A stretch of 51,309 nt of DNA from a virus (IMGVR_UViG_3300009082_000024:1-51309); one strand, 5' to 3'. Shown: positions 7,982 to 47,344, numbered from the stretch's first letter. Program-made: numbers and translations. Notes: generated from the sequence alone by a model not told the origin.

Positions 7982-7983
7982 GA

Positions 7984-8026: not shown

Positions 8027-8041
8027 AAAAAGGAGGAAGGT

Positions 8042-8488: not shown

Positions 8489-8489
8489 T

Positions 8490-8780: not shown

Positions 8781-8781
8781 T

Positions 8782-9129
8782 ATGCCAAGTAGAAATATAG
8801 CCGCTGGGAGAACTTGCCCTGATCAGATTTACAAGACACCGACACCTGTCGCGGGTACATGGTCTTATACTCTTTCTTCTGAGTATTCACTATGTCCTCG
8901 TGACAGGTTTCTTAATCAGATACTTGTGAGGTCCACTACGGCCACAACTACCTTTGACGTATTTATTACAGATATGAACGGTGTTTTAGTCAGGCAATTC
9001 CTTGGAGCTACAGGTGTTTCTAACGATATGACACCTACTCGCATTACAAAAGACTGGACTATTACTATTGGGAGTGCGTCTGTTGACGAACCATTTAATG
9101 TGCTGGTAAAAATGTCTGATGAGGGATAA
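8782..9129 (+). CDS. Small beta-rich virion protein
   Basis: A 115-residue beta-sandwich-like protein (DRFLNQILVRSTTATTTFDV near residues 40-59). ATG 8782 is preferred over an upstream in-frame TTG at 8773 that lies in the previous gene's end. No strong ribosome site is present, so translation is probably coupled to the preceding gene. It shares general style with the genes at 9129, 11004, 11477 and 11803. Confidence 0.5.
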   Translation: MPSRNIAAGRTCPDQIYKTPTPVAGTWSYTLSSEYSLCPRDRFLNQILVRSTTATTTFDVFITDMNGVLVRQFLGATGVSNDMTPTRITKDWTITIGSASVDEPFNVLVKMSDEG

Positions 9130-9530
9130 TGCCATTACCGAATTATATCGAAGGGAGAGTTGCTTCGCTTGCAGATGTTACAGGAAGTGTTTCTATCGAG
9201 CAGGTATTAAGCAATAATGCTGTTCTTTATAGTGGTGAGCAGACATCTGTTTCTGTTGACACTTTGACTACGATAGTTACTGTTCCAGCTAACGGAGTTA
9301 AATATATCACTAAAATAATATGTACTGGAGAAGAAAATGCTCGATGGGATGTTTATATAAATTCTGTTAGAAAGATGACTAAGAGAACAACTGATAGAAA
9401 TGTTGATTTTGATTTTCCAGTTCCTTTGAAGGTCGAAGCTGCGACTGTGATAGATGTAAAAGCTACGCATCATGGGCCTGATGCGTCATCTGATTTCCAA
9501 GCTTGTGTTTTAGGATACCAGGAGGTTTGA
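9129..9530 (+). CDS. Small beta-rich virion protein
   Basis: A 133-residue protein whose ATG overlaps the preceding stop (TAATG). It has a beta-strand pattern with VDTLTTIVTVPANGVKYITK near residue 45 and WDVYINSVRKM near residue 73. This resembles receptor-binding or decoration beta-sandwiches, and the strand order is similar to the 11004 gene product. Function inferred from context. Confidence 0.55.
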   Translation: MPLPNYIEGRVASLADVTGSVSIEQVLSNNAVLYSGEQTSVSVDTLTTIVTVPANGVKYITKIICTGEENARWDVYINSVRKMTKRTTDRNVDFDFPVPLKVEAATVIDVKATHHGPDASSDFQACVLGYQEV

Positions 9531-9760
9531 TGAGTGATGTAAATGTACCAGGGACTTGGCTAGTCTCTCCTACTAAGGAGATAGAAGATAAGTGGGTGGA
9601 AGTCCAGATACAAGAAAGAGTTTCCAGGATAGCACGATACAAACAGGATATTGAGGATCTTAAGAAGGGTAAAATATTGGAGTTAGAAGCTAAAATAATG
9701 CTTCTTGAATTAGAGTTACAGGAGATTAAGGCTCGAAGAATTACAGCGGGCGAGCTTTAA
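9530..9760 (+). CDS. Small coiled-coil protein
   Basis: A 76-residue protein. The first 20 residues are Pro/Ser-containing (MSDVNVPGTWLVSPTKEI) and residues about 22-70 form one continuous charged helix with leucine heptads, a likely trimeric or dimeric coiled coil. The start at 9530 is set by GGAGG five bases upstream. It may be a stalk or assembly factor among the fibre-type genes. Confidence 0.6.
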   Translation: MSDVNVPGTWLVSPTKEIEDKWVEVQIQERVSRIARYKQDIEDLKKGKILELEAKIMLLELELQEIKARRITAGEL

Positions 9761-9777
9761 CTTTATAAGGAGGTCTT

Positions 9778-10746
9778 ATGGCTGATGGTTCGTTTCCTAC
9801 ACTAATCTCGAAAGACCGCGATGTCAATGCTGTGGCTAATCCGATTTACGTTAATTTATCTGACGGAACGGACGTTATTGCCATTGATTCGAGCGGTTAT
9901 TTAACTGTTAATGTTAACGGTACAGTAACTGTGTCATCTACTAATTTAGATATCCGTGATTTAGCAGCTACGCAAGATAATGTGCGTATTTGGGCCAACA
10001 CAGCTAAGGATGGCACGGGTACTAATTACATTCCTATTGTTGACGCTGATGGACAACTTCAAGTTGACGTGTTGTCTTTACCAGCTATTAGCGTTGCTAA
10101 CGTGTACACTGATGACACTGCGTACACTCCTGCTACTGATAAAGTAGGAGCTATTGGCGCAATGGCTGATGAGACATCGCCTGACTCTGTGGATGAAGGT
10201 GACATTGGTATCCCGCGCATGACGCTTGACAGAAAGCTTCTCGCCAGAGTGGTAGGAGCTTCTGACGCGAATAGGTTGGACATTGACGCTTCTGGTCATG
10301 CTCAAATTGACTTAGCGGCAGTGAGTGTCACCGCAGTGCCAGTATCTGCTACGACAGCTGCAAACAGCTCTGGAAACCCTATTTACGTATCTGTGGTTAG
10401 TGCAGGAGTGAGCACTACTGAGGTACAGGATTACGGCACTGGTACAGCTTCTTCTGACGCTTCAGTGAACAATGATTACACTGTAACAGCGACAACTTTC
10501 TTGCTGAGAAGTGTGATCTTTGCTGCATCTGGCGGCATGAAAGCTGAGATCCAGGTAGGCCCTGTAGCTTCATTGGTGACAAAGGCAGTTGGTTTTATCC
10601 CCCGTCAAGGTGGTACAGAACAGCTTTTCTTTGATCCACCGATAGAAGTTCCTGTTGCCAGCACGGGTACAGTGCGCGTGGTAATGACTAATAGGCAAGG
10701 TGCTAGCATGGATGTGTATAGCACGATCATAGGTGATGACGTATAG
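9778..10746 (+). CDS. Large beta-rich virion protein, possible head or tail fibre
   Basis: A 322-residue Val/Thr/Ser/Asp-rich protein starting MADGSFPTLISKDRDVNAV, with alternating strands (YLTVNVNGTVTVSSTNLDIRD) and few helices. The C-terminal 100 residues look like a compact beta domain (TTFLLRSVIFAASGG). It has a perfect AAGGAGG ribosome site and is followed by a hairpin. Probably a surface fibre or decoration protein; no family assigned. Confidence 0.55.
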   Translation: MADGSFPTLISKDRDVNAVANPIYVNLSDGTDVIAIDSSGYLTVNVNGTVTVSSTNLDIRDLAATQDNVRIWANTAKDGTGTNYIPIVDADGQLQVDVLSLPAISVANVYTDDTAYTPATDKVGAIGAMADETSPDSVDEGDIGIPRMTLDRKLLARVVGASDANRLDIDASGHAQIDLAAVSVTAVPVSATTAANSSGNPIYVSVVSAGVSTTEVQDYGTGTASSDASVNNDYTVTATTFLLRSVIFAASGGMKAEIQVGPVASLVTKAVGFIPRQGGTEQLFFDPPIEVPVASTGTVRVVMTNRQGASMDVYSTIIGDDV

Positions 10747-10761
10747 TTAAATTCATTCATT

Positions 10762-10787
10762 CCCCCAGGGGACACCTCCTCTGGGGG
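10762..10787 (+). terminator. GC-rich hairpin after the 9778-10746 gene
   Basis: CCCCCAGGGG pairs with CCTCTGGGGG (one G-T pair) around a 6-base loop, 15 bases after the stop codon. It lacks a T-run and is followed by GAGGAGGAG and the next start. Third hairpin of this kind in the virion operon after those at 7474 and 7984; likely sets messenger ratios. Confidence 0.5.
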
Positions 10788-10811
10788 GTGGATGTCTAAA
10801 GAGGAGGAGTA

Positions 10812-10994
10812 ATGGCAAAAGAGGTTAACCAAACAGTAGGCGCGACTATTCCTGGGAACGTTGATCAACCAGCTCCAGTGGATAACAGCAGAGTTAAGGT
10901 AGATCCAGGGAACATCGATGTTTTGACCATTCAGTTGTTAGCTCAGATAAACAGGAATCTTGTTGAGCTCATTAACGTGATCAAAGAAAAATAG
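10812..10994 (+). CDS. Small protein with helical tail
   Basis: A 60-residue protein. The N-terminal 35 residues are polar and Pro-rich (VGATIPGNVDQPAPVDNSR), and the C-terminal 22 residues form one amphipathic helix (LLAQINRNLVELINVIKEK). It has a GAGGAGGAG ribosome site. It could be a linker or trimerising peptide for neighbouring virion proteins. Function unknown. Confidence 0.55.
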   Translation: MAKEVNQTVGATIPGNVDQPAPVDNSRVKVDPGNIDVLTIQLLAQINRNLVELINVIKEK

Positions 10995-23399: not shown

Positions 23400-24059
23400 A
23401 TGGCTGATATTCAATCAGTAAGATATAACGTACCGCAGCAGGCAGCTCCAGGATTCATGGACTATGCTGCTCAGTTCTTGACTAACTTTATGGGTAGGAA
23501 GCAAGCTGAGGCTGAGAAGAAAAGGGCTTATGAACAGGAGCTTTTCAAGTCTATGGCTTCTGCGCTTGCTGCGCAAAAGCAAATAGAATATGCCCCTGGT
23601 GAAGGACAAGGCATGAAGATCGGTGACCAGGTAGTCCCTTGGAGGGTTGTACCTGCTGCTCGTGAAGATGCAGGATACCCTGTTCAATTGCCTTTACCAG
23701 GAGCTGACCGAGGATTATATCAATTTAATGTTAAAGACCTCAGTGATCTGCAAAAAGTTCACAATGTATTGTTCCCTAATACTCAAATCATGAACGCAGT
23801 AAAAGAGATGGATGAGTTAAGAGCAATGGAGCGTAAGCCTCCGATGACAATAGAAGAAAAAAGACAAGCTTACGATGAACTACAAGCGCAGTTCCTTTTC
23901 AATAGGCAGCCAGGATCTTTTGCTCCTGTTACTCCGACTTTGCAGCCACAGCCTCGTAAAAAGTTCAAGTTCAGTGCAACTAATGATAGGGGAGAGATTA
24001 TTTATTCTAATGATAATAATAACTGGTTTGATAAAGACAATAAACCATATAAATACTAA
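23400..24059 (+). CDS. Probable internal virion protein
   Basis: A 219-residue protein from ATG 23400 (ribosome site GGAGGAA; earlier in-frame starts lie inside the previous gene). N-terminal helical, Gln/Ala-rich region (RKQAEAEKKRAYEQELFK), a middle beta segment, and a basic C-terminus ending NNWFDKDNKPYKY. Its stop overlaps the start of the giant protein gene (TAATG), so the two are translationally coupled. Likely co-packaged ejection component. Confidence 0.55.
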   Translation: MADIQSVRYNVPQQAAPGFMDYAAQFLTNFMGRKQAEAEKKRAYEQELFKSMASALAAQKQIEYAPGEGQGMKIGDQVVPWRVVPAAREDAGYPVQLPLPGADRGLYQFNVKDLSDLQKVHNVLFPNTQIMNAVKEMDELRAMERKPPMTIEEKRQAYDELQAQFLFNRQPGSFAPVTPTLQPQPRKKFKFSATNDRGEIIYSNDNNNWFDKDNKPYKY

Positions 24060-27000
24060 TGCCTTTACCTCCAGGATTTAAGCTAACAGAAGAAACCCAG
24101 GGCAAGGGTCTACCGCCTGGGTTTACGTTGATAGAGGATACGCCTCAGGGTAAACCAAGCTCATACGATACTGTGTGGACTCGTATGGGCGAGACAGCCA
24201 AGCGTCCTGTTGAACTTGCACCTTTCGCGGGAACAGCTGCTGATATATATGATATTGCCAAGATAAAGATGGCAGCTGATAGGCTTCAAAAGGATGAGGC
24301 AACTCAGGAGGATATCGATTTAGTACAGTCTTACCTTGATAAAGAATCCCGCCCTAAAACATTTGGCTATAAAGTTGCTGATGTTGTTGCCCAGATACCT
24401 GCGTTCGCTGGTGAGATGTATTTTACAGGCGGTTTGGCCGCAGCAGGTAAAGCCGCAGCTTTTCAAACTGCAAAGGCTGCCAGCAAAAAGATATTAAGCA
24501 CGGCTACAAGAGAAGCTCTTACAAAATCGTTGGCCAAAACAGCAACTCGAAAACTCCTTACTGGTACAGCAAAAAAGATAGCTGGAGGATTGGTTGCAGG
24601 TAGCGTGCAATCATTGCCTGCTGGTGCGTTAAGGACTATCAAAGGGACTTTAGAGCGCACAGGCCCTCAGATAAATCTTGATGGGAGTATTAGTGGTGGA
24701 CAAGACTTGCTTCCTGCTGCCAAAGATGCTGCTGTTTCACAATGGATAGAGACTGTTTCTGAAAGAAGCGGAGGTTTGTTAGGAGAGGCCGCTAAATACA
24801 TTCCAGAAAAATATATAAATAGTGCCATTGTTAGAGCTTTAAAGAAGGCGAATCCTCTTGCTAATAATGAGCGTTTAAAGAAGGTCGTTGAAGCTACTCA
24901 ATGGCATGGAGTGTGGGGGGAGTTTTTTGAAGAAAGAGTAGCTGATGTCGGTCGCGCCATGACTGGTCTTGATGAATGGAAATTACCTTCCGCAGAACAA
25001 ATAGCTGTCGAGTTAACCTCATTCTCTGTTCCAGGTGTAGGCGCTGCTCTTGCAAAGAAAGCATTAGACTATTCAAAGTCAAAGGGAGAGGTAGCAAAGG
25101 AAGGAGCAAAAGAAGAGGGGATAACGAAAGGAGCAGAAGGTGATATTAAAGTCCCTGTATTCCCTAAGACAGTAAAGTTTACTACTATGGCGGAGATGAC
25201 GGGGAACAAGATATTTTCTACTAGCGTTGAAAAAGATGCTAAAGGCCGCACTGTTATCCAGTCTGCACCGAAACAAAACATCAGGGAGAATTTTACTGCT
25301 GATGAAAATACTCGGATGGACACCATGGCTTCTTCTATCCTCCAGGATGCAAAGATCATAAGTCATTACCCTAAAGCTCATATCGTCCATTTCAATGAGA
25401 TGGAGCCAACCATAAAGGATAACATTGTCAACATATTGTTTGAGAACAAGGATCAGCCGCAAGAGAAACAAACGACTGATGTTATTAACTATGTACAAGA
25501 ACTCCGTAATTCTCCACAGTTATTTTTGTCTGGTGTTGATAAAAAATCTGAGATAGTTAAAAGGCAAGGCAAGCAGATATTTACCGCCATTAATCCTGCT
25601 ACTGAGATCTATTTTTCACCATTCATGGCTAAAGTTCCTTTGACAAGGATAGCCCAATATCTTGTAGGAGAAGGTATCCCTGTTGAGAAGGCCAGTGTCC
25701 ATCAGCTTGTAGGCGCGGACCAGGTAGAAATAGCCAAGCAGGTGCATAAGACATTAGAGATAGAGTTTAACAGACAAGCAAAGCTCCAGCGAAATGCTCG
25801 AGAGGCAGCTGCTGTCGTTGACAACGTTAGGGCATATGACGAATCGAAAGAGCCGTCTCCGATTAAAGCTGAGATACAGCCCAAGGTTGACACCGCAGCG
25901 CTCTCTAAGTTCTTCAAGGGTAAAAAAGTTGATACTGCTCTCCCTTCGCCAACGCAACAGCAAGCATCTGCAATTACTCCTGAAATTGTTACTGAAGCTC
26001 CTAGGAATAAAGAAGTTGTTATAAGAGATATAATCGAAGGGCAGTTGGGTAGCACAGTTTTATCTAATGAAGAAGCAATTGAGTATACTGATACAAAAAA
26101 TGTTTTGACTACTGCTGAAAAAGCAAAATTGCTCAAAGTGCTTGATTTATTATCAACACGCGAAGATGAGTATACTTTACAAACTATGACTCCTCAAGAG
26201 CGTCAGGAGTTTTATCGCCAACGTTCTTTTGTGGCTGATAAAGCTATAGAAGCTATTCTTGGCAAACCAAAAGGTAAAGAAGCAAAAGCTGTGAGTGAAT
26301 CTGCTGTTGAGCCTACTGCCGCTACGGAGAATACAATTACTATTGTGCCTCAAGGTAAAGGAGAAATAAATGGGATGCGAGGCCCCTTGGGAGAACACAT
26401 GAACACAGTTGGGATGAAGCCTGGTAAACCTGGATGGCTTGGTAACCCAATTAAGTGGGCAGGGAATGGTGGTAAAGGCACTCTACAAGATGCTATTGCT
26501 GGATTTAAACAATTGTTTCTAAAAAAAGTAGAAAGCAATCCTGAATTTAGACAAGCTGTTCTTGATCTCCGCGGTAAACGTATAGGATATTATCGTCCTA
26601 ACGATCCTAATCACCTTCAGGTAATACAGGAATGGCTTGAGGGGATAGCAGAAGCAGATGCAGAACGTTCTGCTTATAACGAAGAGTCCTCTCAGGCAGA
26701 TACAGCTCGTCTTAATGCAGATGTAATTCTAACAGGTAAAAGCCCTTATCTTGCTAAAGACCAATTGAAAGCAGATAAGGCTAATAAGTTTATAGGGAGA
26801 GGATCATTCGCTAGCTCTACAGCTCAGTATGCTAAAAACTTTGGTGACAAGGCTAATATGGGGACGTATGCTCCATCTGATGTTGTTTTCATTTCAGCAG
26901 AAGGCAATAGAACAGGGAGAGTCAAGCCTGATTTTGGTGAGATACAAAAAGCTATTGATGCGGGAGCAACGCTTATAACAGATAACCAGGAGAATAGGAA

Positions 27001-30000
27001 GCGTCCTTATAATATTGGCGAACGCGAGGTTGCTGATTTTCTTATTAAAGGTGGATATATCGAACAGGATGGGACATGGAAAAGAAGCCAACCTGTTGCT
27101 GCTGCGGAAGCCCAGGATAAGTTATCAAGAGCAAGAGAAGAAACGTTGAGGAGGGCTATTGATGACAGCAGACTTCCTCAGATAGTAAAAGATGCTATAA
27201 GCAAGTATGTAGTCTTTGTCGATAGAATCCCTCCAGAAAGTGTTAATGATCCCAAGCTGGATATAGTATCCGCATATGACCCAGCCAAGGATAAAATAAT
27301 AATATCACTTGACCATATGACCGAAGGTGATGTGGCAAAAAAGGTCGCCCATGAATTTTTACATCGCGGGTTTGTAAAAACTGCTGAGGTTCTTGGCGGG
27401 CTTAATGAATTATACGATATCTTTTCAAAGGCTAAAGACCAGCTTATGGAAGTTCTTCCTGATCTGTTGAAATCAACAGGGCATACTTCGTTAGAGGAAT
27501 TAGTCGCTGATTATAAGATAGACCTTAATACCCAAGCTGGACAATTGCAATTGTGGCAGGAGTTGGCAGGCAGGTGGGCAGAAAATTTAGCACCACAACC
27601 AGTGAGACAAGAAGCTTGGTACGATGAGCTGCTCGATAATCTTGCAGCATGGATAAAAAGTTTTGTCGGCATAGAATCAAGCAGGAAAGAAGTAAACCGT
27701 TTAGTCAGCGGATTAGTGGTAAGAGGATCGTTAGACGCTATCCCAGAGCAGATGCAGGAAGGAAGTCTTTATCGTGAACCTGAGTTGAAAGTTGATGAGG
27801 GCGGGGATATTATTAAGCATCCTCTTGTTTCTGATGCTCTTAAGAATTATTCATTGACGCTTCAAGACAAAGAGAACGCGATGAAGCAAGGTTCTCTTGA
27901 GGATACGATAATAGGTCAGATATATGATATCAATAAAACACTTCATGGGGAAGCTAAAGGAAAACTCGGTAAGCTTTCTCGTTATCAAGCTGTGCTGGAC
28001 GAAATAGCAAGGCTTCGTAAAAAGCGCGGTGTATTACTTTACTTTTTAAATGTCAAATTAAATAGAGACCGCACCAAGATGGCGCAGGCTCTTCAAAATC
28101 TTCCTGATCTTATACCAGAAGAAATACGCGTTATGTTGGAGAGTACTCCTCAGAGATTAACCAGCGAGATAGGGATAATAGACAAGGAAGTTTCCAGAAT
28201 GACATGGCCGATGAATGTCAACAGTCCTTCTCGTTTGAAAAAAGAAATAGATGTTGCGCAAAAAGAAATTGCTCGCTTGAGCAATATACTCAAGACAGCA
28301 AATAAGCAGCAAGCTCCTTTATTGTCTAAAATAAATACAGCGTACAAAAATGAACTCAATGCTTACCTGGAACAGATGACTCCTTATGAGAAAGCCTTGG
28401 TAAGCGGGAAGACAGCTGCCCAGATCTCAAGAATAATACAAGACATAGAGAACAAAGGCCTTAATAAAGAAGTTAAATTAGTCGATGATCTTATCGGAGA
28501 ACGCAGGGCAAAATATGCTCAATATTTTGAAGAAGAGCTAGAGCCTGGTCTAGTTGTTGATAAAGGTGATGAGAAAGTCAATTTAGATGCTCAAGATGTT
28601 GCTGCGGTTGAAGAATATAAAAGCTTAGCTAAGGAAGCTAAAGACGCTATTGATGAGTCAGAGCAGAAGGAGATCACTCGACAGGCTTACGATAAGAGAC
28701 TTACTGAGATGTATAACAACTTGAGCGATGACGCCCGCTATGCTGTTGATATGGGCAATTCTTCAGAGCTTTATCGCGAGAGCATTGATGATGGAACACT
28801 AGAGTTAGGCGGTGGTTACGCTTCTGTGACAGCTACAAGGCCTTATATCCTTAAAGGCACAGTCCAGGGTAAGCCTGTGACCAAGACGTTGGAAGGTACT
28901 TATAGGATACAGTCTGTGATGGAAGACGGTAAAGTATTGTCTGGAGTTGTGAGCACTGCTGAGAGTTTTCGCATAGATGAAGTCGATCTGACAAGAGACC
29001 AGTTTGAAGAGATGCTTCGTGAGAACCAACGGCTTGCCGAAGAGACTGACGAGGCGCCTTTGAAGATAGATTATTGGGGCTTGCAGATGGCTGCCAAGAG
29101 AGGTAAAAGTCCAGTAGGGCAGAACAGCCAGAAACCTGATAATCCCTTTAAGATGGAACGCACTATGTCTGCCCGACTTGTTCTTGATCTTTTGAGATTT
29201 GCTCCTCAAGGATTAAAAGGCTGGGCTAAAGAGAAGTTACCTGATGAGGTAGTGAGGGCAACGCAGCGATTCTTTGCTCCCAAGCAGGTGGTGGAAAATC
29301 CCCAGAAGATAGTCGAAGTCCTTTATGATGAGAAGAATAGAAGCTCGTATTTTGACGCTCTAGCCTATTCTATGCTGCATGGCATAGATAGGAAGATCGC
29401 TGATACTGTGAGAAGGGATCATAAGAACTCTCAGATGACGATCAAGCAGAGTACTCCCCGCGTTATTGAGTCAGTGAAGAAATTATTATCTTCTGCTGCT
29501 TCTGAGATATTCGTGAAAGAAGGTGATGCAGGCCGCATTGCTGTCACTGATGTAGGCAAGCAGCATCAGCATGGACCAGGGACTTATCTCGGTGACCTGA
29601 AAGCTGAGGCGCAAGGTTTTATTGAACGGGCTACCTGGATGATAGATTTCTTTAAGATAGATGAGCAGTGGTTGAGAAAGACTTATTCTATACCTGCTAA
29701 CCAGACTGTGATCAAATATCTTTCTAAGACTCGTCCAGAGTTATTTTTCTATAAGATGTTAGCGCATCCTAATGTGTCTAGCGATAATATGCTTCAGAGG
29801 ATACTTGCTTACGGGCAATCTATCCAGACAACTATCTTAAGAAGGATGATGCAAGTCGGCTTGTTAAGCAGGGCTGACATGGCAAGAAATATTCGTGATG
29901 GTTATTTTAATAGGGTGTTTGACTTTCTCGATACGCAAAAGAAAAGAAGAAGAGCTACAAGTGGTGGTAATGCTGCTACAGAAAGTCAGGTTATACAGGC

Positions 30001-31972
30001 TCGCAAGTATCGTACCAACGAAGAATATCTCCTTGCTGCTGGAGATTGGAGGCTTCCCAGTAGAGATCCTTTAGGGCTTCCCCCTGAGTTTACAGCCACT
30101 GGCAGAGGCTTATTCCCTGTTGATGATTATGTCGCACAACTCCAAGAATATGTTAAAGACAGCCTTAAGAAAATAGACCAGGCTCAGTCTATTGAAATGC
30201 TTAGAGATGTTGAGATAGCACCGAATAGAAAAGCTGTTTATTATAGGCATGATGTAGAACCGTTGGCCAAGAAGGCAGGAGTGAGCGTTGAGAACTGGCT
30301 TCAAGCTAATCATTATGTAGAAGCTAAAGGAGCTCCAGGCTTGGTACAATGGTATCGTGGAGCTTTCCAGGAGCCTTGGGTACATGATTCAGTAGCTGAC
30401 ATTGTTACTAATATGTACGGTCAAGAAGGAAAGAGTCCGACCATGTGGTTCTTGAATTTCTTAAGGCGCGTGCAGACATGGAACCCTTTTGATACTACCG
30501 CTATTTACCTGGGCAGGATGCTAGTAAGTTTTAAACCGCACGTCTATAAGACATTTATCCGTAATCTTGGACGTGCTTTTCCGAAGGTTATTTCTGCTCC
30601 GATCACTACAGCCAGGCGCATGATCAGAGGTGAGTATGACGAAGATCCTATACAAAACTTTGATCTATTGCCTCTCATGATGGAGGCTGGTTTTTCGGGG
30701 TATAGATTTGAATCAGCATTACGTGCGAGTTTTAGTAATATGGATCTCGGTAAGTTTGCCAGCGCGCGCGGAGTAGTGACTAATCTTTATGATTATTTGA
30801 TAACTGCTGGTGGTATCAGTCCGACCATTTTCAACGAGATAATTTCAAGGACTTTATATGATGTGACTAAAGTGGAATATGAAGCTATTAAGAAAAGAAA
30901 ACCTCACTTGTCTGATAAGGCAGCGATGAAACGTGCGGTTAGCTTCGTCAACGATGCTTCAATGATCCCTACCAGTGCTGTCTATGCCAAGGCTGGTAAG
31001 ATCTATAATTTCATTTTTTATTCAAGGAATTTGATCACAGCACCTGTTCGCATGGCTACTGGTGCTGCTTATGGATTAAGTAAGCTTCCAGGCATAAAGG
31101 GTACTAAGGCGGAGAAAACGATACAGAGTTTTTATAAGTTCAAAACTGGCCCTCTTTCGCACTACTTTACTCCTTTGACGCACGGAGAAAAAACACCTGA
31201 GGAATTGGATGACCTTTGGCAGAGGTATGCTGTACAGCTTGCTTCAGTATTCGCAGTTAAATTAGCGGTCAATACGTTCGTTCAATACATGATGCAGAGT
31301 CTGCGTGGCGGCCCAGATGATGACAAGTGGATGTTTAATAACCCGAAGGGCTATAAGTTTTCTATCTGGGGAGGAGCAAGGGACGAAAGCAATAGGACGC
31401 ATCTTATTGAACCTCAGTACATGAGAGAGGTGCAATTTCTTTATGATATGCTAGGGCCTACTTCTATAGATTATAAAGTTAAGAGAGCAAAAAATAAATT
31501 AAACGTAGGCCTTAGCCAGCTGCTCACTTTCTTCGAATATTGGGCTAAGAACAGTGACGTTCCTCTTCTGACCGAAGGCGGTAAGGCAGGTTGGTTAGTC
31601 GATGCCGCTCAGGAAATGAGCGAAGCTTTTACGGCTATGGGTTTTGAAAGACAACCAGAATATAAAGGTGAGGATCAATGGTTAAAGGCAGCACAGTTGT
31701 TCGGTGTAACCGTGCGGCAAGGCCCTGCGCTTGGCCCAGGGGAATCGATGTCTATGGTTGATAGGATAAAAGCTCCAGGCAAGATGAGAGATTATATCTT
31801 GGATACAGCACGCAGGCGTATTGTTGATGAGGGGCAAGATCCTATGCAGGTTCGTCGTGAATTAGGGCTCACTTTCGATCAGATAAAAAACATAGTTCTT
31901 AGCACCCGTACTCCGTTACTAGATCTTTTTAAGAGAAATAGAAAAGCAACCATACAATTCCAGAAAAAATAA
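24059..31972 (+). CDS. Giant polyvalent internal/ejection protein with zincin motif
   Basis: A 2637-residue protein. In order: two LPPGF(K/T)L motifs (residues 4-25); Ala-rich hydrophobic helices (about 100-215); a DUF4326-like segment (about 770-865, GKPGWLGNPIKWAG and LDLRGKRIGYYRP); a second small domain (about 900-1020, FIGRGSFASSTAQYAKNFG, DNQENRKRPYNIGEREVA); a zinc metallopeptidase motif HEFLH (1098-1102); coiled coils (about 1380-1520); and a C-terminal third resembling the LPD38 module of polyvalent phage proteins. Such proteins travel in the head and enter the cell with DNA. Peptidase targets unknown. No stop or frameshift seen. Confidence 0.75.
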   Translation: MPLPPGFKLTEETQGKGLPPGFTLIEDTPQGKPSSYDTVWTRMGETAKRPVELAPFAGTAADIYDIAKIKMAADRLQKDEATQEDIDLVQSYLDKESRPKTFGYKVADVVAQIPAFAGEMYFTGGLAAAGKAAAFQTAKAASKKILSTATREALTKSLAKTATRKLLTGTAKKIAGGLVAGSVQSLPAGALRTIKGTLERTGPQINLDGSISGGQDLLPAAKDAAVSQWIETVSERSGGLLGEAAKYIPEKYINSAIVRALKKANPLANNERLKKVVEATQWHGVWGEFFEERVADVGRAMTGLDEWKLPSAEQIAVELTSFSVPGVGAALAKKALDYSKSKGEVAKEGAKEEGITKGAEGDIKVPVFPKTVKFTTMAEMTGNKIFSTSVEKDAKGRTVIQSAPKQNIRENFTADENTRMDTMASSILQDAKIISHYPKAHIVHFNEMEPTIKDNIVNILFENKDQPQEKQTTDVINYVQELRNSPQLFLSGVDKKSEIVKRQGKQIFTAINPATEIYFSPFMAKVPLTRIAQYLVGEGIPVEKASVHQLVGADQVEIAKQVHKTLEIEFNRQAKLQRNAREAAAVVDNVRAYDESKEPSPIKAEIQPKVDTAALSKFFKGKKVDTALPSPTQQQASAITPEIVTEAPRNKEVVIRDIIEGQLGSTVLSNEEAIEYTDTKNVLTTAEKAKLLKVLDLLSTREDEYTLQTMTPQERQEFYRQRSFVADKAIEAILGKPKGKEAKAVSESAVEPTAATENTITIVPQGKGEINGMRGPLGEHMNTVGMKPGKPGWLGNPIKWAGNGGKGTLQDAIAGFKQLFLKKVESNPEFRQAVLDLRGKRIGYYRPNDPNHLQVIQEWLEGIAEADAERSAYNEESSQADTARLNADVILTGKSPYLAKDQLKADKANKFIGRGSFASSTAQYAKNFGDKANMGTYAPSDVVFISAEGNRTGRVKPDFGEIQKAIDAGATLITDNQENRKRPYNIGEREVADFLIKGGYIEQDGTWKRSQPVAAAEAQDKLSRAREETLRRAIDDSRLPQIVKDAISKYVVFVDRIPPESVNDPKLDIVSAYDPAKDKIIISLDHMTEGDVAKKVAHEFLHRGFVKTAEVLGGLNELYDIFSKAKDQLMEVLPDLLKSTGHTSLEELVADYKIDLNTQAGQLQLWQELAGRWAENLAPQPVRQEAWYDELLDNLAAWIKSFVGIESSRKEVNRLVSGLVVRGSLDAIPEQMQEGSLYREPELKVDEGGDIIKHPLVSDALKNYSLTLQDKENAMKQGSLEDTIIGQIYDINKTLHGEAKGKLGKLSRYQAVLDEIARLRKKRGVLLYFLNVKLNRDRTKMAQALQNLPDLIPEEIRVMLESTPQRLTSEIGIIDKEVSRMTWPMNVNSPSRLKKEIDVAQKEIARLSNILKTANKQQAPLLSKINTAYKNELNAYLEQMTPYEKALVSGKTAAQISRIIQDIENKGLNKEVKLVDDLIGERRAKYAQYFEEELEPGLVVDKGDEKVNLDAQDVAAVEEYKSLAKEAKDAIDESEQKEITRQAYDKRLTEMYNNLSDDARYAVDMGNSSELYRESIDDGTLELGGGYASVTATRPYILKGTVQGKPVTKTLEGTYRIQSVMEDGKVLSGVVSTAESFRIDEVDLTRDQFEEMLRENQRLAEETDEAPLKIDYWGLQMAAKRGKSPVGQNSQKPDNPFKMERTMSARLVLDLLRFAPQGLKGWAKEKLPDEVVRATQRFFAPKQVVENPQKIVEVLYDEKNRSSYFDALAYSMLHGIDRKIADTVRRDHKNSQMTIKQSTPRVIESVKKLLSSAASEIFVKEGDAGRIAVTDVGKQHQHGPGTYLGDLKAEAQGFIERATWMIDFFKIDEQWLRKTYSIPANQTVIKYLSKTRPELFFYKMLAHPNVSSDNMLQRILAYGQSIQTTILRRMMQVGLLSRADMARNIRDGYFNRVFDFLDTQKKRRRATSGGNAATESQVIQARKYRTNEEYLLAAGDWRLPSRDPLGLPPEFTATGRGLFPVDDYVAQLQEYVKDSLKKIDQAQSIEMLRDVEIAPNRKAVYYRHDVEPLAKKAGVSVENWLQANHYVEAKGAPGLVQWYRGAFQEPWVHDSVADIVTNMYGQEGKSPTMWFLNFLRRVQTWNPFDTTAIYLGRMLVSFKPHVYKTFIRNLGRAFPKVISAPITTARRMIRGEYDEDPIQNFDLLPLMMEAGFSGYRFESALRASFSNMDLGKFASARGVVTNLYDYLITAGGISPTIFNEIISRTLYDVTKVEYEAIKKRKPHLSDKAAMKRAVSFVNDASMIPTSAVYAKAGKIYNFIFYSRNLITAPVRMATGAAYGLSKLPGIKGTKAEKTIQSFYKFKTGPLSHYFTPLTHGEKTPEELDDLWQRYAVQLASVFAVKLAVNTFVQYMMQSLRGGPDDDKWMFNNPKGYKFSIWGGARDESNRTHLIEPQYMREVQFLYDMLGPTSIDYKVKRAKNKLNVGLSQLLTFFEYWAKNSDVPLLTEGGKAGWLVDAAQEMSEAFTAMGFERQPEYKGEDQWLKAAQLFGVTVRQGPALGPGESMSMVDRIKAPGKMRDYILDTARRRIVDEGQDPMQVRRELGLTFDQIKNIVLSTRTPLLDLFKRNRKATIQFQKK

Positions 31973-35516: not shown

Positions 35517-35661
35517 GTTATCTCAGCTTATCGCTGCCATCGAGGGCAAGAAGAAAGAAGTCAACATCGCCCAGATCAAGGAAATACTTTCGTGCGCGCA
35601 GAAGGTTACCAAAGAAAGAGGTTATGATTTTTACGCATGGTTAAGGAAGGTGGGAGAATGA
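35503..35661 (+). CDS. Small helical protein
   Basis: A 52-residue protein from ATG 35503, which has AGGAGGG five bases upstream; an earlier in-frame start would lie well inside the ATPase gene. Helical (VSELSQLIAAIEGKKKEVN). Overlaps the ATPase end by 14 bases and the GroES-like gene by four. Function unknown. Confidence 0.55.
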   Translation: MKVSELSQLIAAIEGKKKEVNIAQIKEILSCAQKVTKERGYDFYAWLRKVGE

Positions 35662-35933
35662 TTACGTTTAAACCGCTTAGTGACTACATTGTTATCGAAC
35701 GCGTTATGGCTAAGACTTCAATAGCCTTGCCAGAGAACAGCGAAGCATGCAGCGATGACATCTTTGAAGTCGTTGCCGTAGGGTCTGGGGATGATGAACA
35801 CCCTATCACTGTTAATATCGGTGACAAGGTGTGCTTGACTGGATATATTAACACTTACGCTTATAAGGGCGTAAAGGTCATCCTAGGGCGTTCAAGAGAC
35901 GTCATAGCGATAGTCCAGGACACCCCGTTTTGA
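35658..35933 (+). CDS. GroES-like co-chaperonin
   Basis: A 91-residue protein that follows the GroES pattern end to end: FKPLSDYIVIERV at the start, LPENSE, then FEVVAVGSG, NIGDKVCL and VKVILGRSRDVIAIV. The central mobile loop that binds GroEL is short. Phage co-chaperonins such as T4 gp31 replace GroES so that the host GroEL can fold the capsid protein. No GroEL gene is present. It lies in the replication region, not beside the capsid gene, so it would be made early. Confidence 0.75.
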   Translation: MITFKPLSDYIVIERVMAKTSIALPENSEACSDDIFEVVAVGSGDDEHPITVNIGDKVCLTGYINTYAYKGVKVILGRSRDVIAIVQDTPF

Positions 35934-41633: not shown

Positions 41634-42125
41634 ATGATGGTTATTGTCTGGACGATTTTGTTTACGTTGCTCAATGCTTTCCTGTATCGTATTGGCGGTC
41701 TTTCCAAAGAAGATGCAAAGAAGAAATTCCCGTGGTATCCTCAAGCATTAGTCAACACAAAGGCCCGCGACATAGGCATAGCGTTGACAACGATAGCTTG
41801 GTTGCTGTTGTGCCATCCCGTGATGCCGTGGTTTATATATCTAATAACTTTCGGGGTTACATTCGCAGCGTTGACAACGTACTGGGATTCTCTCTTCGGC
41901 GAGGACAACTTCTTTTTTCATGGTCTTGTCATCGGTTTGGCTAAACTTGGTTGCGTGATAATAACTGGTCATTGGATAGGTTTTATTGTCCACACTTTGG
42001 TTTTAGCGGTGGGCATGTGGCTTGTTTCAGTGATGATTGTGGACTGGGCTGAAGATGCTGACTTTGAGGAGTGTGGCAGAGGAGCTATGACGGCGTTAGC
42101 AATGCCTCTCATGCTGATTGGATAG
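41634..42125 (+). CDS. Multi-span membrane protein
   Basis: A 163-residue protein with about five hydrophobic segments (near residues 3-17, 48-64, 66-82, 98-112, 116-134) separated by short charged loops. AAGGAGC ribosome site. Last gene of the rightward replication operon, ending 17 bases inside the convergent minus-strand gene. Holin or superinfection-exclusion roles are possible; no family recognised. Confidence 0.6.
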   Translation: MMVIVWTILFTLLNAFLYRIGGLSKEDAKKKFPWYPQALVNTKARDIGIALTTIAWLLLCHPVMPWFIYLITFGVTFAALTTYWDSLFGEDNFFFHGLVIGLAKLGCVIITGHWIGFIVHTLVLAVGMWLVSVMIVDWAEDADFEECGRGAMTALAMPLMLIG

Positions 42126-42393
42126 ACTTTACTACTTCTTCTATGACGGTGACTATATCATCTTTTTTGCTCTTGAGGAAATCAGTAAGATGCCAGCAAG
42201 TTTTTCTTCTTTTCCATTGCCAGCAATCACAATAATAAGTACCGTCTTTAGCTTGGATTATGTGATACTCAGCTTCATGAGTTTTGCTTTTATAAGTTCT
42301 GATGATGATACTTGCTTCGAATGTTTCAGACCAGTACCTTAGAGTATCTTCCCAGAACTTATCTTTTCGCAAGTTCTTTTTTCTTGTCCTCAT
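42109..42393 (-). CDS. SWIM-type zinc-finger protein
   Basis: A 94-residue protein with CDCWQWKRRKTCWH (near residues 55-68), a CxC-x(n)-CxH SWIM zinc finger, preceded by a strand AEYHIIQAKDGTYY. SWIM domains bind DNA or proteins. Last gene of the minus-strand operon; its end overlaps the convergent plus-strand membrane gene by 17 bases. No terminator seen between them, so antisense read-through is likely. Confidence 0.6.
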   Translation of the reverse strand: MRTRKKNLRKDKFWEDTLRYWSETFEASIIIRTYKSKTHEAEYHIIQAKDGTYYCDCWQWKRRKTCWHLTDFLKSKKDDIVTVIEEVVKSIQSA

Positions 42394-42883: not shown

Positions 42884-43540
42884 TTAGATCATCTTGATCT
42901 TTTTTCTTTCTGTTGCTACTGGAGCAGCTACTTTTTCAGGTACTGACTCATTAAGATGTTCAAATACTTTTTGCTCTTTGAACACACCTATTTCCAAGCC
43001 CCACTTATTCTCAAATGATACCGCTCTTATGTAACCGTCACTGGCAACAAAACCTCTGCTGCTTGTGCAGAACTCACCACGTGCTACTAATTTATTCTCG
43101 TTAAGATATTCCCAAAGCTTGCGCATCTGGAAAAGATTATTCCTTTTAGCCTGATCCCTGTCGAAGTCTTTCTTCATCCCATTGTCATCAGGGAATATCT
43201 CATAATAAGATGCTATCACATAGTTGTCCGTGTAATTAGAAAGCTGTTGATACCCTGTAAGCTGCATCACTTTTGTCTGTGAGTTCTCGTTGACTTGCTC
43301 ATTGTTGTACCAGAACGTGAGTTCTGATTTACCATAGATGGTTCCGTCATCATCGACCCATTGTCTTGTGAGCTGTCCTTGCTGTAACACTACACCATTG
43401 ACAACGCTTTTCTCTTTAGCTATCTTCCCCGTGGGAGTCTTTGCGACTATCTCTGGCCGCTCCATCCTTGAAAGATTTTCATACCGCACATTCATGCTGA
43501 CACCGAGATTAGTGTCGGCGATCTGTAATTTGTAAGCCAT
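42884..43540 (-). CDS. Beta-barrel protein, possible Ku-like DNA-end binder
   Basis: A 218-residue protein. The strand-rich middle, a YYEIFPDDNG segment (about residue 110), the following helix (RKLWEYLNENK) and the segment LVARGEFCTSSRGF resemble the order of the Ku barrel core (YxLxPD, LREAL, xxxARFxLRxRexL). Ku homologues are known from mycobacteriophages Omega and Corndog, and Mu Gam is a distant relative. An ATP-dependent ligase gene lies in the same operon. The match is weak, by eye, and needs structure comparison. A general beta-barrel DNA-binding protein is the alternative. Confidence 0.4.
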   Translation of the reverse strand: MAYKLQIADTNLGVSMNVRYENLSRMERPEIVAKTPTGKIAKEKSVVNGVVLQQGQLTRQWVDDDGTIYGKSELTFWYNNEQVNENSQTKVMQLTGYQQLSNYTDNYVIASYYEIFPDDNGMKKDFDRDQAKRNNLFQMRKLWEYLNENKLVARGEFCTSSRGFVASDGYIRAVSFENKWGLEIGVFKEQKVFEHLNESVPEKVAAPVATERKKIKMI

Positions 43541-43686
43541 GATCCCTCCTTTTTTCCTTCTGCACCCAAGCCATACGCTTGCACTCTTCTTTTTCGTTCA
43601 GCCCTGCGGGCTGCTTTTTCATTGTTCTTCTCTTTCTTATCTTTGTCGCTGCTGGCAGGGTGCAGTCTTTCGTTTCTGCCTTTCAT
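43492..43686 (-). CDS. Lys/Arg-rich small frame, uncertain
   Basis: A 64-residue frame whose ATGA start overlaps the VWA stop, giving a very basic peptide (KDKKEKNNEKAARRAERKRR). It overlaps the next gene by 49 bases and covers a palindromic region. Coupled start supports it; composition could equally come from a structured RNA spacer. Treat as uncertain. Confidence 0.3.
   Translation of the reverse strand: MKGRNERLHPASSDKDKKEKNNEKAARRAERKRRVQAYGLGAEGKKEGSWLTNYRSPTLISVSA
43560..43665. repeat. Palindromic spacer between VWA and Ku-like genes
   Basis: CTGCACCC (43560-43567) and GGGTGCAG (43658-43665) are perfect inverted arms about 90 bases apart. Between them a hairpin CAGCCC-TGC-GGGCTG (43599-43613) is followed on the plus strand by CTTTTTC. 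On the plus strand this could stop antisense transcription. On the minus strand it lies in the operon message. Similar in plan to the larger palindrome at 45252-45352. Confidence 0.55.
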
Positions 43687-45218
43687 TCTAACATTGTTTT
43701 GATAGTTTCCATGATCACCATGTCAGCGTGTTCATCGGCTATAATATTACTTTCTCCAGCTATAGTCTGGACAAAAGCTCCTGTTAATTCAGCACCGATG
43801 CCTACTACCATACATTTTACTTCAGCTCCGTGCTTGATGATCTGCACGCGCAGGTTGTCTATCTCATCTTTCCCCACATAACCGTCAGTCATCAGGACGA
43901 CAAGCTTGTTACCGTCTATCTCCTGATTGCTGAGTATGTCAGCCTGCACTTTCATAAACGCTTTGTAAAGGTCAGTTCCACCGCTATTAGCGGAGTATTC
44001 TTTCTCCCAATTATCACCATGCTTATAAGCATTTGTGTCGAAACTCCATACATCATAGCTTATGTTAAGCCCTTCCTGTTCCTGTATGTCTTTTAAGATC
44101 TCGATGATGCTTCTTACCGTACGCACTACCACCTTTTTCCTGTCACTTCCATCGATCATCCGTGATGACATCGAGCCTGATGCGTCCAAGCAGAAAGCTA
44201 TCTTACTTTTCTTTACCTTGACTATGTCATCTTCGTGGAATAATTCTTCTATGTCTCCAGTAAAGAATGAAGTGATAGCCTCTGTGTTAAGCTTGGCTCC
44301 TTCGAATACCATTCTCTTTTCTTTGACCGCTAATAGTTCCTTAAATGAGTTCTTAGTGAGCTCTTGAAACGCTGCGCTTCCAATAATTTCTTTGCTTGCT
44401 CCTTTGATACCGCTTCCTTTGTCCCAAGCAGAGCTAGGATTGAGGAAACGCTTAGTGTCGCCAATGTGTAGCACATCTTCATTGCCACCAAGTCCAGCTG
44501 GACTAGATCCGCTGCCTTCACTTCCTTTTTCTTGGCCGCCTTCACCTTGCCCTTGGCTTTGTCCTTCTTTTTTGTTTTCATCAGCCCCTCCTTGTTGAAT
44601 TGATATTTGCATCTCTTGTATTTGCGGGTCGTCTTCGTCTTTGATCTTGAACAGTTCCTTTACTTTCTTAATAGCTTTTTTTACTTCTTCCCAGTTGTTG
44701 CTTTCAATATCATTGATCGCTTGACGCATGAGCGAATATATATTGTTGTCTTCATTGAACTTTAATGCTTCCGTGTCATTCAACGTTTGAAATCCTTCGT
44801 TATAAAGTATGCCGTTGATAAGGCAACGTGTCATGAGATGTTCTTTCTTCATCTCCTCAAGTTTGGGATAAACATGTTGCTTTAATAATTCTCCATAAAA
44901 TTCTTTTATATTGTCAAGCATCCTGAAATTCTTCAGGTCTATTCTCAGGTCTTCAAAAGCGTTCAATATATTATGGCTTATTATTCTTCCGTCAGATACT
45001 TCTTTCGGTATGACACCGCTAAACTTAAGATGGGCTGCTTCGTGCATCAGCAAGGCTAATGCTCCCAATACATTATGTTCCTTGAGATCACACGGCATAT
45101 ATATTTCGTTCTTTGTCGGGTTAGAACTTGCTCCCTGTGCTTGTGCGTCAAATATAACCTTTGCGTTATGCTTAGAGGCGCACCATTTGGCAAGCAGTTC
45201 GAATGTCATTCTTTGCAT
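43683..45218 (-). CDS. VWA protein with metallopeptidase-like N-terminus (CobT/DUF2201-type)
   Basis: A 511-residue protein. N-terminus: HEAAH (59-63) with a downstream NAFED (86-90), the zinc-ligand layout of metallopeptidase-like domains of the DUF2201 group. Middle: acidic helical region and a Gly/Gln/Ser-rich linker (about 215-245). C-terminus: a von Willebrand A domain with a full metal site: DASGSMS (345-351), Thr415 in SGGTDLY and Asp445 in LMTDGY. Pairs of VWA proteins with MoxR-type ATPases (next gene upstream) remodel or insert cofactors in other proteins. The partner in this phage is unknown. Confidence 0.8.
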   Translation of the reverse strand: MQRMTFELLAKWCASKHNAKVIFDAQAQGASSNPTKNEIYMPCDLKEHNVLGALALLMHEAAHLKFSGVIPKEVSDGRIISHNILNAFEDLRIDLKNFRMLDNIKEFYGELLKQHVYPKLEEMKKEHLMTRCLINGILYNEGFQTLNDTEALKFNEDNNIYSLMRQAINDIESNNWEEVKKAIKKVKELFKIKDEDDPQIQEMQISIQQGGADENKKEGQSQGQGEGGQEKGSEGSGSSPAGLGGNEDVLHIGDTKRFLNPSSAWDKGSGIKGASKEIIGSAAFQELTKNSFKELLAVKEKRMVFEGAKLNTEAITSFFTGDIEELFHEDDIVKVKKSKIAFCLDASGSMSSRMIDGSDRKKVVVRTVRSIIEILKDIQEQEGLNISYDVWSFDTNAYKHGDNWEKEYSANSGGTDLYKAFMKVQADILSNQEIDGNKLVVLMTDGYVGKDEIDNLRVQIIKHGAEVKCMVVGIGAELTGAFVQTIAGESNIIADEHADMVIMETIKTMLE

Positions 45219-45231
45219 ACATCGTCTCCTT

Positions 45232-45378
45232 TCAACGCTCTCGTCGCGCTACACGGGACAGAACGCTACGCAGCCGTGATCTTGCCTGCTTTCTTTTGCT
45301 GTCCTGCCTTCTCTCTGCAAGTATCACGGCACGCTCCGCTCTCTGTCCCGTGAGTGCTCCTCGGCGTTGACCATTCAT
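45232..45378 (-). CDS. Arg-rich small frame, uncertain
   Basis: A 48-residue frame starting ATGA on the AAA+ stop codon, giving an Arg-rich peptide (RRQDSKRKQARSRLRSVLSR). It lies entirely over a large palindrome. Coupled start favours translation; the biased composition may just reflect GC-rich paired arms. Uncertain. Confidence 0.3.
   Translation of the reverse strand: MNGQRRGALTGQRAERAVILAERRQDSKRKQARSRLRSVLSRVARRER
45252..45352. repeat. Large imperfect palindrome between the AAA+ and VWA genes
   Basis: CACGGGACAGA (45252-45262) and TCTGTCCCGTG (45342-45352) pair perfectly over 11 bases. Further in, CCGTGAT-CTTGC (45274-45285) pairs with GCAAG-T-ATCACGG (45317-45329) with one bulge; between them are internal loops of similar length, so the whole is a 100-base cruciform or RNA hairpin. 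It lies between two genes otherwise expected to be coupled. Probable RNA processing or ratio-setting element. Confidence 0.65.
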
Positions 45379-46523
45379 TCTCCTACTCTCTCCTTTTCGC
45401 TTTGTGGCATCAGTTCTTTCCATACTGCTTGGGCAAGCCTGAAGAAAGCTTCTTTCGCTTTAGGCTGACTGACTGCTTCCATGATGCTGGTGATACCATC
45501 TTCGATAGCGTGCTGCAACGGCATACCATGTATCCACAAGTCAATGCAGTTATTAAGCTGCCGTATGCTGATGTCAACGGGGATATTGGCTTGCTCAATA
45601 GTTTGCAAGCAGGCGAAATAGAACTTGGTAAACCTTTCGATGTCATCGCTGTGCAGTTGCGGGAACTTCTTTCTTATTGCAAGTTTTATTTCTTTTACGC
45701 TGAACTCTGGAAATGTCAGATAGGTACACCTGCCTAAGAAATTACTTGCCTTGATATTACCGCCGATATACTTTGCGCTCTTCGGGTTCTGGGCAAAAGC
45801 GAGTTTGCAATCATCATGCAGCCGATACACTTTGCCTTTTCCACCGTCAGCGTCTTTGATAAACAGTTCTCTGTTCCACATGAACGCATGGAAATCAAAT
45901 GTACCTGCATTTGAAAGGGCATTGATCTCATCAAAGCATATCAGGCACGGCCCTTGGACAGCCTTCACGAATGTACTTTCTTGGAACATCACACTGCCGT
46001 TTTGTATGGTCTTATCACCAAATAACTTTGGCAATTTAAAATCCTCATACATCGAGAAAAGTAAGAACGGAAGCTTTCTTACATGCGCATAGTACATGAT
46101 TGAATAGGTCTTGCCAGTCCCCTGCTTTCCTTGGCACAAGGGATACTTCCAATGTCCTGCCCTGCTTGCGTCAAGATGATGAGCGAGCCTTTTATCTATG
46201 TCCCGTATGACATAGTTTGAGAATTCTTCCTCGACTGGGATAAAACGCTTCATCTCATCGCTGACCTGATATTCTTTCACCGCGATTGTTTCTTTCTTAG
46301 TAGTCACTTCTTCTGTTTGTTTTGGTTCTCCTATTCCGCTGCTTAATGGCTGGCCCATCTCTATGAATCTGCCTCGTATTGTCGAGTCGTCCATCTCTAT
46401 GTTGTGCTGGGTTTTCAACGCGTCTTTGATCTGCCACGCGCGGACTTTTGCATTTGTCTTAGCGAGTTCATCTCTGATCGCTAATAATATCTTGTCATCT
46501 ACCCTGTCTACTGGCGGCATCAT
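45375..46523 (-). CDS. MoxR/CobS-type AAA+ ATPase
   Basis: A 382-residue AAA+ protein. N-terminus has a winged-helix-like segment (residues about 8-60, VRAWQIKDALKTQHNIEMDD). Walker A is GKQGTGKT (132-139), Walker B LICFDEIN (194-201), with AQNPKS (sensor 1 Asn) and a GRCTYLTFP arginine-finger region following. Start overlaps the ligase stop (ATGA). It is the motor partner of the VWA protein downstream, as in CobS-CobT and MoxR-VWA pairs, and in T4-like cyanophages that carry CobS-like genes. Confidence 0.85.
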   Translation of the reverse strand: MMPPVDRVDDKILLAIRDELAKTNAKVRAWQIKDALKTQHNIEMDDSTIRGRFIEMGQPLSSGIGEPKQTEEVTTKKETIAVKEYQVSDEMKRFIPVEEEFSNYVIRDIDKRLAHHLDASRAGHWKYPLCQGKQGTGKTYSIMYYAHVRKLPFLLFSMYEDFKLPKLFGDKTIQNGSVMFQESTFVKAVQGPCLICFDEINALSNAGTFDFHAFMWNRELFIKDADGGKGKVYRLHDDCKLAFAQNPKSAKYIGGNIKASNFLGRCTYLTFPEFSVKEIKLAIRKKFPQLHSDDIERFTKFYFACLQTIEQANIPVDISIRQLNNCIDLWIHGMPLQHAIEDGITSIMEAVSQPKAKEAFFRLAQAVWKELMPQSEKERVGE

Positions 46524-47344
46524 TCCTCCTCTCCTTCTTTTTTAATGAAAATTGGGTTTCTTAATGAACCTGAATCCAATACTCCAAGATGCTGTATCAC
46601 CACTTTATCTCCTACCTTCAGGTTTTTCTTGTGTTTTGCCGATACCTTTACTCCGCATGATATGCCGAGAGTGTGACTGTTTGGTGATGGTAGTCCGCTT
46701 GTGTTTGGCAACGGCACTATTATCTCTATTCTTTCCTGTGTGCTTGAGATAGAGTGCACTTCGTAGACATTAGTGTCTCTGCATTTTATTTTTACCCAAG
46801 GACACGGCCCTACTTGGAATACTGAGTCCAATGATTTAACCACGACTCCTTCATATCCCTGTCCCATCACATACAATGCGTAAGTGTGTGCTTCAGTTGC
46901 GTTGGTCACTAACCTGCATTGCCCGAGATATTTCTTCCTGAACAATTCTGTGATCATTTCTTTTCTTTCTACGAGTGGTCTTGTGTCAACTACTCCGCGT
47001 ATTGCCATATCATAGATGATAAAATTAAGGTCATCGGAGTCTTTGTGTTTGAGAAGTTGATAGAGAGCTTGGTTCTTGCCTTCGCCATAGAACAATTCAC
47101 AATAGAGATAAGCATACTCAAGGTTGGTTGTCCGCATGATGTCCGCTATTTCTACAAGCTTATCCCATTTTGTTCTTATTGTCCCATGCTTATTAGCAGC
47201 AAATATCTCGGCGCCTCTTTGGTAGACGATCACCATTGCTTCACCGTCATATTTTATTTCGGCAAAACTCGGGTATCGCAGGCCAGCCAAGCTTCCTCTA
47301 TGCTCTGGGAATCTCGCTTTCGGGCCATTCTTCGATAGTAACAT
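46520..47344 (-). CDS. ATP-dependent DNA ligase
   Basis: A 274-residue ligase from ATG 47344 (AGAGGTGGAAG upstream; longer starts run into the zinc-ribbon gene). Motif I K31YDG34 in EIKYDGE, motif III CELFYGEG (82-89), FIIYDM, motif IV EGVVVK (165-170) and motif V WVKIK (183-187) are all present, followed by an OB-fold of about 85 residues. Minimal size resembles phage and LigD-type ligases. It would seal nicks in replication or join ends, the latter if the nearby Ku-like protein is real. Confidence 0.9.
   Translation of the reverse strand: MLLSKNGPKARFPEHRGSLAGLRYPSFAEIKYDGEAMVIVYQRGAEIFAANKHGTIRTKWDKLVEIADIMRTTNLEYAYLYCELFYGEGKNQALYQLLKHKDSDDLNFIIYDMAIRGVVDTRPLVERKEMITELFRKKYLGQCRLVTNATEAHTYALYVMGQGYEGVVVKSLDSVFQVGPCPWVKIKCRDTNVYEVHSISSTQERIEIIVPLPNTSGLPSPNSHTLGISCGVKVSAKHKKNLKVGDKVVIQHLGVLDSGSLRNPIFIKKEGEEE

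Follow-up and report, generated by a model that had tools for sequence, protein, structure and literature searches.

The locus examined here raises the question of what a DNA ligase, an AAA+ ATPase, a VWA protein and a small barrel protein with Ku-like features are doing together in a phage genome. Ku proteins of known families form rings on DNA ends, which a partner ligase then seals. The locus lies in a viral sequence of 51,309 nt (IMGVR_UViG_3300009082_000024), and the whole of this stretch is referred to below as the window. A preliminary description made from the sequence alone had placed the four genes in a row on the minus strand, named the ATPase as MoxR, credited the VWA protein with both a full MIDAS and a HEAAH site, and suggested that their union was a DNA-end or replication-related machine, or a system for remodelling host proteins, not known to have been described. 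According to that description, its reading would be refuted if the barrel protein were not a Ku barrel and the ligase did not co-occur with the ATPase-VWA pair in relatives.

Layout of the cassette and identification of the ligase, ATPase and VWA protein

All four ORFs (4/4) were recovered, in the transcription order ligase, AAA+ ATPase, VWA protein and barrel (Ku-fold) protein (Table 1), and the gene row of the preliminary description, including the intact ligase motifs, held. The ligase stop codon overlaps the start of the AAA gene by 4 nt (ATGA, 46520-46523), and the two remaining intergenic gaps in the cassette are each ~150 nt. The remainder of the window is a tailed-phage genome on the plus strand, with terminase, portal, head and tail, exonuclease and DnaB helicase genes. 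These plus-strand genes converge on the minus-strand cassette near 42.1 kb, and the cassette occupies a minus-strand arm distant from the structural genes.

Table 1. Features of the cassette in the window and of the corresponding row in a second phage lineage
Feature	Position	Strand	Comments
ATP-dependent DNA ligase	46520-47344	minus	274 aa; nucleotidyltransferase and presumed OB part; PF01068
AAA_5/CobS-type AAA+ ATPase	45375-46523	minus	PF07728, PHROG 249
VWA protein	43683-45218	minus	N-terminal HEAAH...NAFEDLRID metallopeptidase-like part; C-terminal VWA with complete MIDAS
Divergent Ku-fold protein (predicted structure)	42884-43540	minus	218 aa; conserved C-terminal peptide KKIKMI
Small protein with SWIM-type zinc-finger pattern (CxC...CxH)	42109-42393	minus	Accessory, not core; often near the cassette
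Row in L056, L057, L058 and L060	~8-16.5 kb		Ligase, zinc-ribbon, canonical Ku, conserved 181-aa protein, AAA_5, peptidase-VWA

Elsewhere in the window, a phage-encoded homologue of Cpn10 (GroES-like) was found at 35637-35933 (PF00166, E 5.3e-8), and a 2637-aa ORF (24059-31972) has almost no family match, with a single weak match to a PHROG.

The ligase matched PF01068 (E 3.4e-9, 37.1 bits against a cut-off of 26.2) and PHROG 114 (E 2e-15). Motifs I (KYDG), IV (EGVVVK) and V (WVKIK) all conform to the general forms KxDG, EGxxxK and WVKxK. The best NCBIfam model was TIGR02779, 'non-homologous end-joining DNA ligase' (E 9.5e-11, far below the cut-off of the model). Neither a polymerase nor a phosphoesterase domain was found, and LigD models scored far below their cut-offs. 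The start of the gene was set at 47344 using a conserved Met, rather than at the TTG at 47404.

The ATPase matched PF07728, AAA_5 (E 3.6e-7, 30.7 bits against a cut-off of 22) and includes a Walker A (GKQGTGKT) and a Walker B (CFDE) motif. Its best PHROG was 249 (E 1.3e-15), which is CobS-type and annotated as porphyrin biosynthesis, and the closest proteins found when its profile was compared to PDB were Midasin (E 3.3e-18) and CbbQ/NorQ. Based on the AAA_5 match, the Walker motifs and PHROG 249, the protein was classed as CobS/CbbQ/NorQ/Midasin-like, inside the MoxR-type group. AAA_5/CobS-type is a better name for it than the earlier MoxR.

The VWA protein matched PF00092 (E 7.4e-7, 30 bits against a cut-off of 23.8), and its MIDAS is complete (DASGSM, GGT and TDG, corresponding to DxSxS-T-D). 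The MIDAS, a HEAxH motif and a downstream ExDxRxD-type motif were present in all of the genomes checked (11/11) and HEAxH was invariant, so this part of the preliminary description also held. Despite the invariant HEAxH, the protein from this cassette and its relatives (cassette 1) did not match PF13203 (DUF2201). It is referred to as metallopeptidase-like, and any peptidase activity is inferred only from the motif. The CobT-like proteins of phages TIN4 and ReqiDocB7 have a similar layout, and a BLAST search of the window protein against 50,697 annotated phages yielded no usable match.

The PADLOC models detected no anti-phage defence system in the cassette. There were only partial matches to the AAA and VWA proteins (E 0.0006-0.009), and a reading of the cassette as a defence system was dropped on these grounds.

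Is the barrel protein a Ku?

The 42884-43540 product has no usable match of its own in Pfam, PHROG, NCBIfam, PADLOC or the PDB sequences, and none was found by BLAST among the 50,697 annotated phages. Signals from its family are weak. Ku (PF02735) is the best Pfam family for two orthologues, L005 and L007, and the matches are in the same register, with E values of 0.0079 and 0.011 in searches of the whole library and scores of 16.5 and 16.1 bits, which are under the gathering score of 25 bits. When the family profile was aligned using hhalign with 12 genuine Ku proteins, the score was 29.2 (P ~0.002), and the maximum in 200 column shuffles was 23.2. However, when 744 ORFs were searched with a profile of 12 real Ku proteins, members of the family scored no better than background, and two profiles of the family (A6 and A12) found no match in the PDB sequences.

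An AF2 model that drew on only six close sequences reached a pLDDT of 55, which is poor, and had no structural match, but inclusion of distant orthologues (14 sequences) raised the pLDDT to 73, which is moderate. Using this model, all 50 of the top chains listed by Foldseek in PDB were Ku, ranging from human Ku80 to the Ku of Bacillus subtilis and Mycobacterium tuberculosis (E 1e-7 to 4e-5, probability 1.00), and the matches extended over the full length (~230 columns). In a search of the BFVD viral structures, the top two matches were phage Ku (E 9e-6 and 1.5e-5) and the next had an E value of 0.04. The TM-scores for the Ku matches were only ~0.42, with rmsd mostly 9-15 Å, and because these scores are modest the arrangement of the domains remains uncertain. 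We conclude that the protein very probably has a Ku fold and hence that the earlier identification of a Ku-like barrel is very probably right, even though the protein has no Pfam match of its own. This conclusion is a prediction that depends on one model of moderate confidence together with weak sequence signals.

Members of the main clade, which makes up 8 of the 11 genomes checked, keep a C-terminal peptide of the form [KR][LIV]K[MLR][VI]. It could be a docking signal, but this is inferred from the sequence. A further Ku homologue was noted in an unannotated 5.5-kb 'Bacteriophage sp.' record from human faeces (MT838252.1:4148-4888).

Recurrence of the four genes in related loci and in a second lineage

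Related loci were collected using three different anchors, namely Ku, AAA and the ligase. Thirteen diverse genomes contain the complete set of four genes (the window, L002, L004, L005, L007, L008, L010, L011, L012, L014, L027, L028 and L029), with the VWA gene truncated by the end of the contig or locus in L004 and L029. The identity of the most diverged orthologues falls to 28-30 % (L014). Clustering of the genes in 16 related loci recovered the ligase and Ku in 15 each and AAA and VWA in 14 each, and two of the gaps are due to truncated contigs (L003 and L026). The next most conserved neighbour family, the SWIM-like zinc finger, was present in 10 of the 16; weak matches to PF04434 in L014, L027 and L028 (E 0.010-0.015) were below the cut-off. 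The position of the Ku gene varies, as it is found after VWA, between AAA and VWA, or before the ligase, but it remains inside the cluster. Pairwise distances for the four proteins are correlated (Mantel r 0.65-0.85), though shared phage ancestry also predicts such a correlation.

Two loci include only part of the set. In L032, a relative of the Omnitrophota prophages described below, Ku and the ligase are present (7974-10864) without the AAA/VWA pair, and a ComM-like gene follows. In L062 (7920-9939), the ligase adjoins a distant homologue of the window Ku (E 8e-11 with its profile), and AAA and VWA were not detected within the available 11 kb. As both have the ligase and Ku without AAA/VWA nearby, the ligase and Ku are likely to be the core. 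An uncharacterized protein of ~174 aa is conserved near Ku and the ligase in six genomes, L027 (4031-4552), L028, L029, L014, L026 and L032.

Two of the loci, L027 and L028, are in Omnitrophota chromosomes as prophage-like elements; the host of the window phage has not been established. In L027, a tyrosine integrase is followed by rpoD/dnaG-like genes, and in L028 (7094-8238) an integrase is followed by a tRNA-Lys and then frr, pyrH, tsf and rpsB-like genes. We take these to be host genes, named by reading the translations, and the tRNA-Lys is likely to be the attachment site of the L028 prophage. No match to PF02735 was found in either of these MAGs and each included a single match to PF01068, at the place expected for the prophage ligase. 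Hence, no Ku or ATP ligase was found beyond those of the prophage, but the MAGs are incomplete and this absence is not proof. Ku is carried by only 2 of the 145 Omnitrophota genomes searched. A tyrosine integrase was present in the two Omnitrophota elements but in none of the nine virus records tested, and a general link between the module and integration was therefore dropped.

A scan anchored on the ligase identified four large contigs (66-148 kb) from uncultured phages that include the same quartet (Table 1). Here the Ku is beyond question, as that of L056 matches PF02735 with an E value of 6.5e-39 (134.2 bits, above the 25-bit cut-off). The VWA proteins of this lineage match PF09967 and PF13203, 'putative metallopeptidase' (DUF2201), above the cut-off and have a HEILH motif. 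The L056 AAA was not recognized by the cassette-1 AAA profile, and its VWA protein was recognized only weakly by the corresponding VWA profile. Two distantly related settings therefore combine the same set of four functions, and this is the strongest argument for a functional association. With each gene present in 14-15 of the 16 related loci, and all four again in a second lineage, the association goes beyond chance.

Co-occurrence in relatives was a check proposed in the preliminary description, and the ligase, AAA and VWA genes accompany the Ku-fold gene in the 13 genomes and again in the second lineage. Neither of the outcomes that would have refuted the reading was observed, and it is supported. 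The gene identities, operon structure, order, conservation and recurrence in two phage lineages are shown; the function discussed below is inferred.

A possible end-joining module and its alternatives

The explanation we favour is an end-joining module that the phage encodes along with a clearing machine for it, and taken as a whole it is as likely to be wrong as right. Double-stranded ends of phage DNA would be encircled by a ring of the Ku-fold protein, presumably dimeric, that shields them and holds them together. Sealing would then fall to the small LigD-type ligase, so that an infecting genome is circularized or broken ones are rejoined. The module would serve hosts that do not have their own NHEJ. 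After sealing, Ku would be topologically trapped on the closed DNA, and the complex of Ku (or the ligase) would be seized and dismantled by the AAA_5 ATPase together with the MIDAS-VWA/HEAxH protein; the HEAxH site may cleave the client. End joining by Ku and the ligase is probable, though it is inferred and there are no biochemical data. That the AAA/VWA pair remodels or unloads Ku or the ligase is slightly less likely than not and is inferred by analogy and from gene association. There is no direct evidence that Ku is the client, and action of the pair on a DNA-end complex, as implied by the DNA-end machine of the preliminary description, rests on gene association only. A bolder reading, that the AAA+/MIDAS-VWA metallopeptidase is a prokaryotic Ku-unloading machine that strips or cuts trapped Ku rings, is no more than a possibility. 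Relative to eukaryotic NHEJ it would be a ubiquitin-free counterpart of the action of p97, and the VWA protein, as a separate partner, would have its parallel in the fused VWA domains of Ku70/80.

Parts of this scheme have precedents. Phage Corndog is thought to recircularize its genome by NHEJ using its own Ku, and recircularization of the infecting genome has been proposed for the phage-encoded Ku of Omega, Corndog and their relatives (PMC4351075). The window-type proteins share the Ku fold with these mycobacteriophage proteins but are far more divergent and sit with a ligase, AAA and VWA. In Pound and Ryadel, the two Ku-bearing mycobacteriophages tested, no ATP ligase of their own and no such AAA was found, so in these two ligation is presumably left to the host. 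In bacterial NHEJ (Ku and LigD), Ku is likewise encoded with an ATP-dependent ligase, and the phage ligase is closest to the model for the LigD ligase domain. However, it consists of the ligase domain only and the AAA/VWA pair is added. In AAA_5/MIDAS-VWA pairs, the MIDAS grips a client that the ATPase remodels (PMC9976466), and NorQ/NorD, CbbQ/CbbO and Rea1 (Midasin) all combine an AAA ring with a MIDAS-VWA arm of this kind. The phage VWA protein differs in having the additional HEAxH site, and its client is unidentified. In eukaryotes, the AAA+ protein p97 extracts Ku rings locked on joined DNA (PMC5577460), but p97/VCP is from an unrelated AAA clade and its action on Ku70/80 is ubiquitin-dependent, so the comparison is by analogy only.

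Phage pairs of this type have also been described previously, both as a VWA protein with a metallopeptidase domain adjoining a MoxR-type ATPase, in jumbo phages (PMC7824862), and as cobS-cobT pairs (PMC8651126). In these, as in TIN4 and ReqiDocB7, an AAA_5-type ATPase lies beside a VWA protein with an N-terminal HExxH, but they were reported in connection with virion assembly or cobalamin and not with Ku and a ligase. Hence, phage Ku and phage AAA/peptidase-VWA pairs were each already known. For the union of phage Ku, phage ligase and AAA/VWA, which the preliminary description had considered new, no report was found in the open-access literature searched, though this is not proof of absence.

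The most serious alternative, which is possible but ranks below the end-joining module with a clearing machine, is that two separate modules are merely neighbours, with Ku and the ligase joining ends and the AAA/peptidase-VWA pair serving as a chaperone or protease in virion assembly or host takeover. The role in virion assembly proposed for the jumbo-phage MoxR-vWA with its N-terminal metallopeptidase (PMC7824862) favours this. So do the ligase and Ku without the pair, and the pair without a ligase or annotated Ku in TIN4 and ReqiDocB7, which means that mere neighbourhood cannot be ruled out. Pound and Ryadel in turn have Ku without a ligase or such an AAA, so the two halves can work apart. 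Against separate modules are the translational overlap of the ligase and AAA genes, the location of the cassette away from the structural genes, the location of Ku between AAA and VWA in some genomes, and recurrence of the union in two lineages with different AAA subfamilies.

The remaining alternatives fare less well. The Ku-fold protein could protect ends rather than join them, acting as a Gam-like nuclease shield, with the ligase used in replication and the AAA/VWA pair remodelling replication or host proteins. End protection of the Gam type is known from phage Mu (PMC1378119) and the window also includes exonuclease and DnaB-helicase genes, but we consider this unlikely given that the ligase is nearest to an NHEJ ligase model, and that the ligase and Ku persist together in the second lineage and even where AAA/VWA is missing (L032 and L062). 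It is very unlikely that the protein is some other DNA-binding barrel in a replication or repair operon. The sub-threshold Pfam scores, the failed first model, the low TM-score and the negative or weak profile tests against real Ku would allow it, but the PDB matches listed were exclusively Ku, the viral structure matches dropped off sharply after the two phage Kus, and in the second lineage an undoubted Ku accompanies a ligase of this family. Finally, the pair could be CobS/CobT-like cobaltochelatase auxiliary genes beside a repair ligase, in line with the match to PHROG 249 and the known phage cobS-cobT pairs (PMC8651126). This was rejected and is all but excluded, as no CobS, CobT or CobN family in Pfam or NCBIfam was matched, and it leaves the recurrent Ku and ligase unexplained.

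If the end-joining module with its clearing machine is correct, these phages would supply a complete end-joining system to hosts without one of their own. Removal of Ku after joining in prokaryotes would become testable in a minimal system, via the recurrent AAA/peptidase-VWA partner. It would also suggest a client for an AAA/VWA pair that is widespread in phages and has carried the label of cobalamin biosynthesis or virion assembly.
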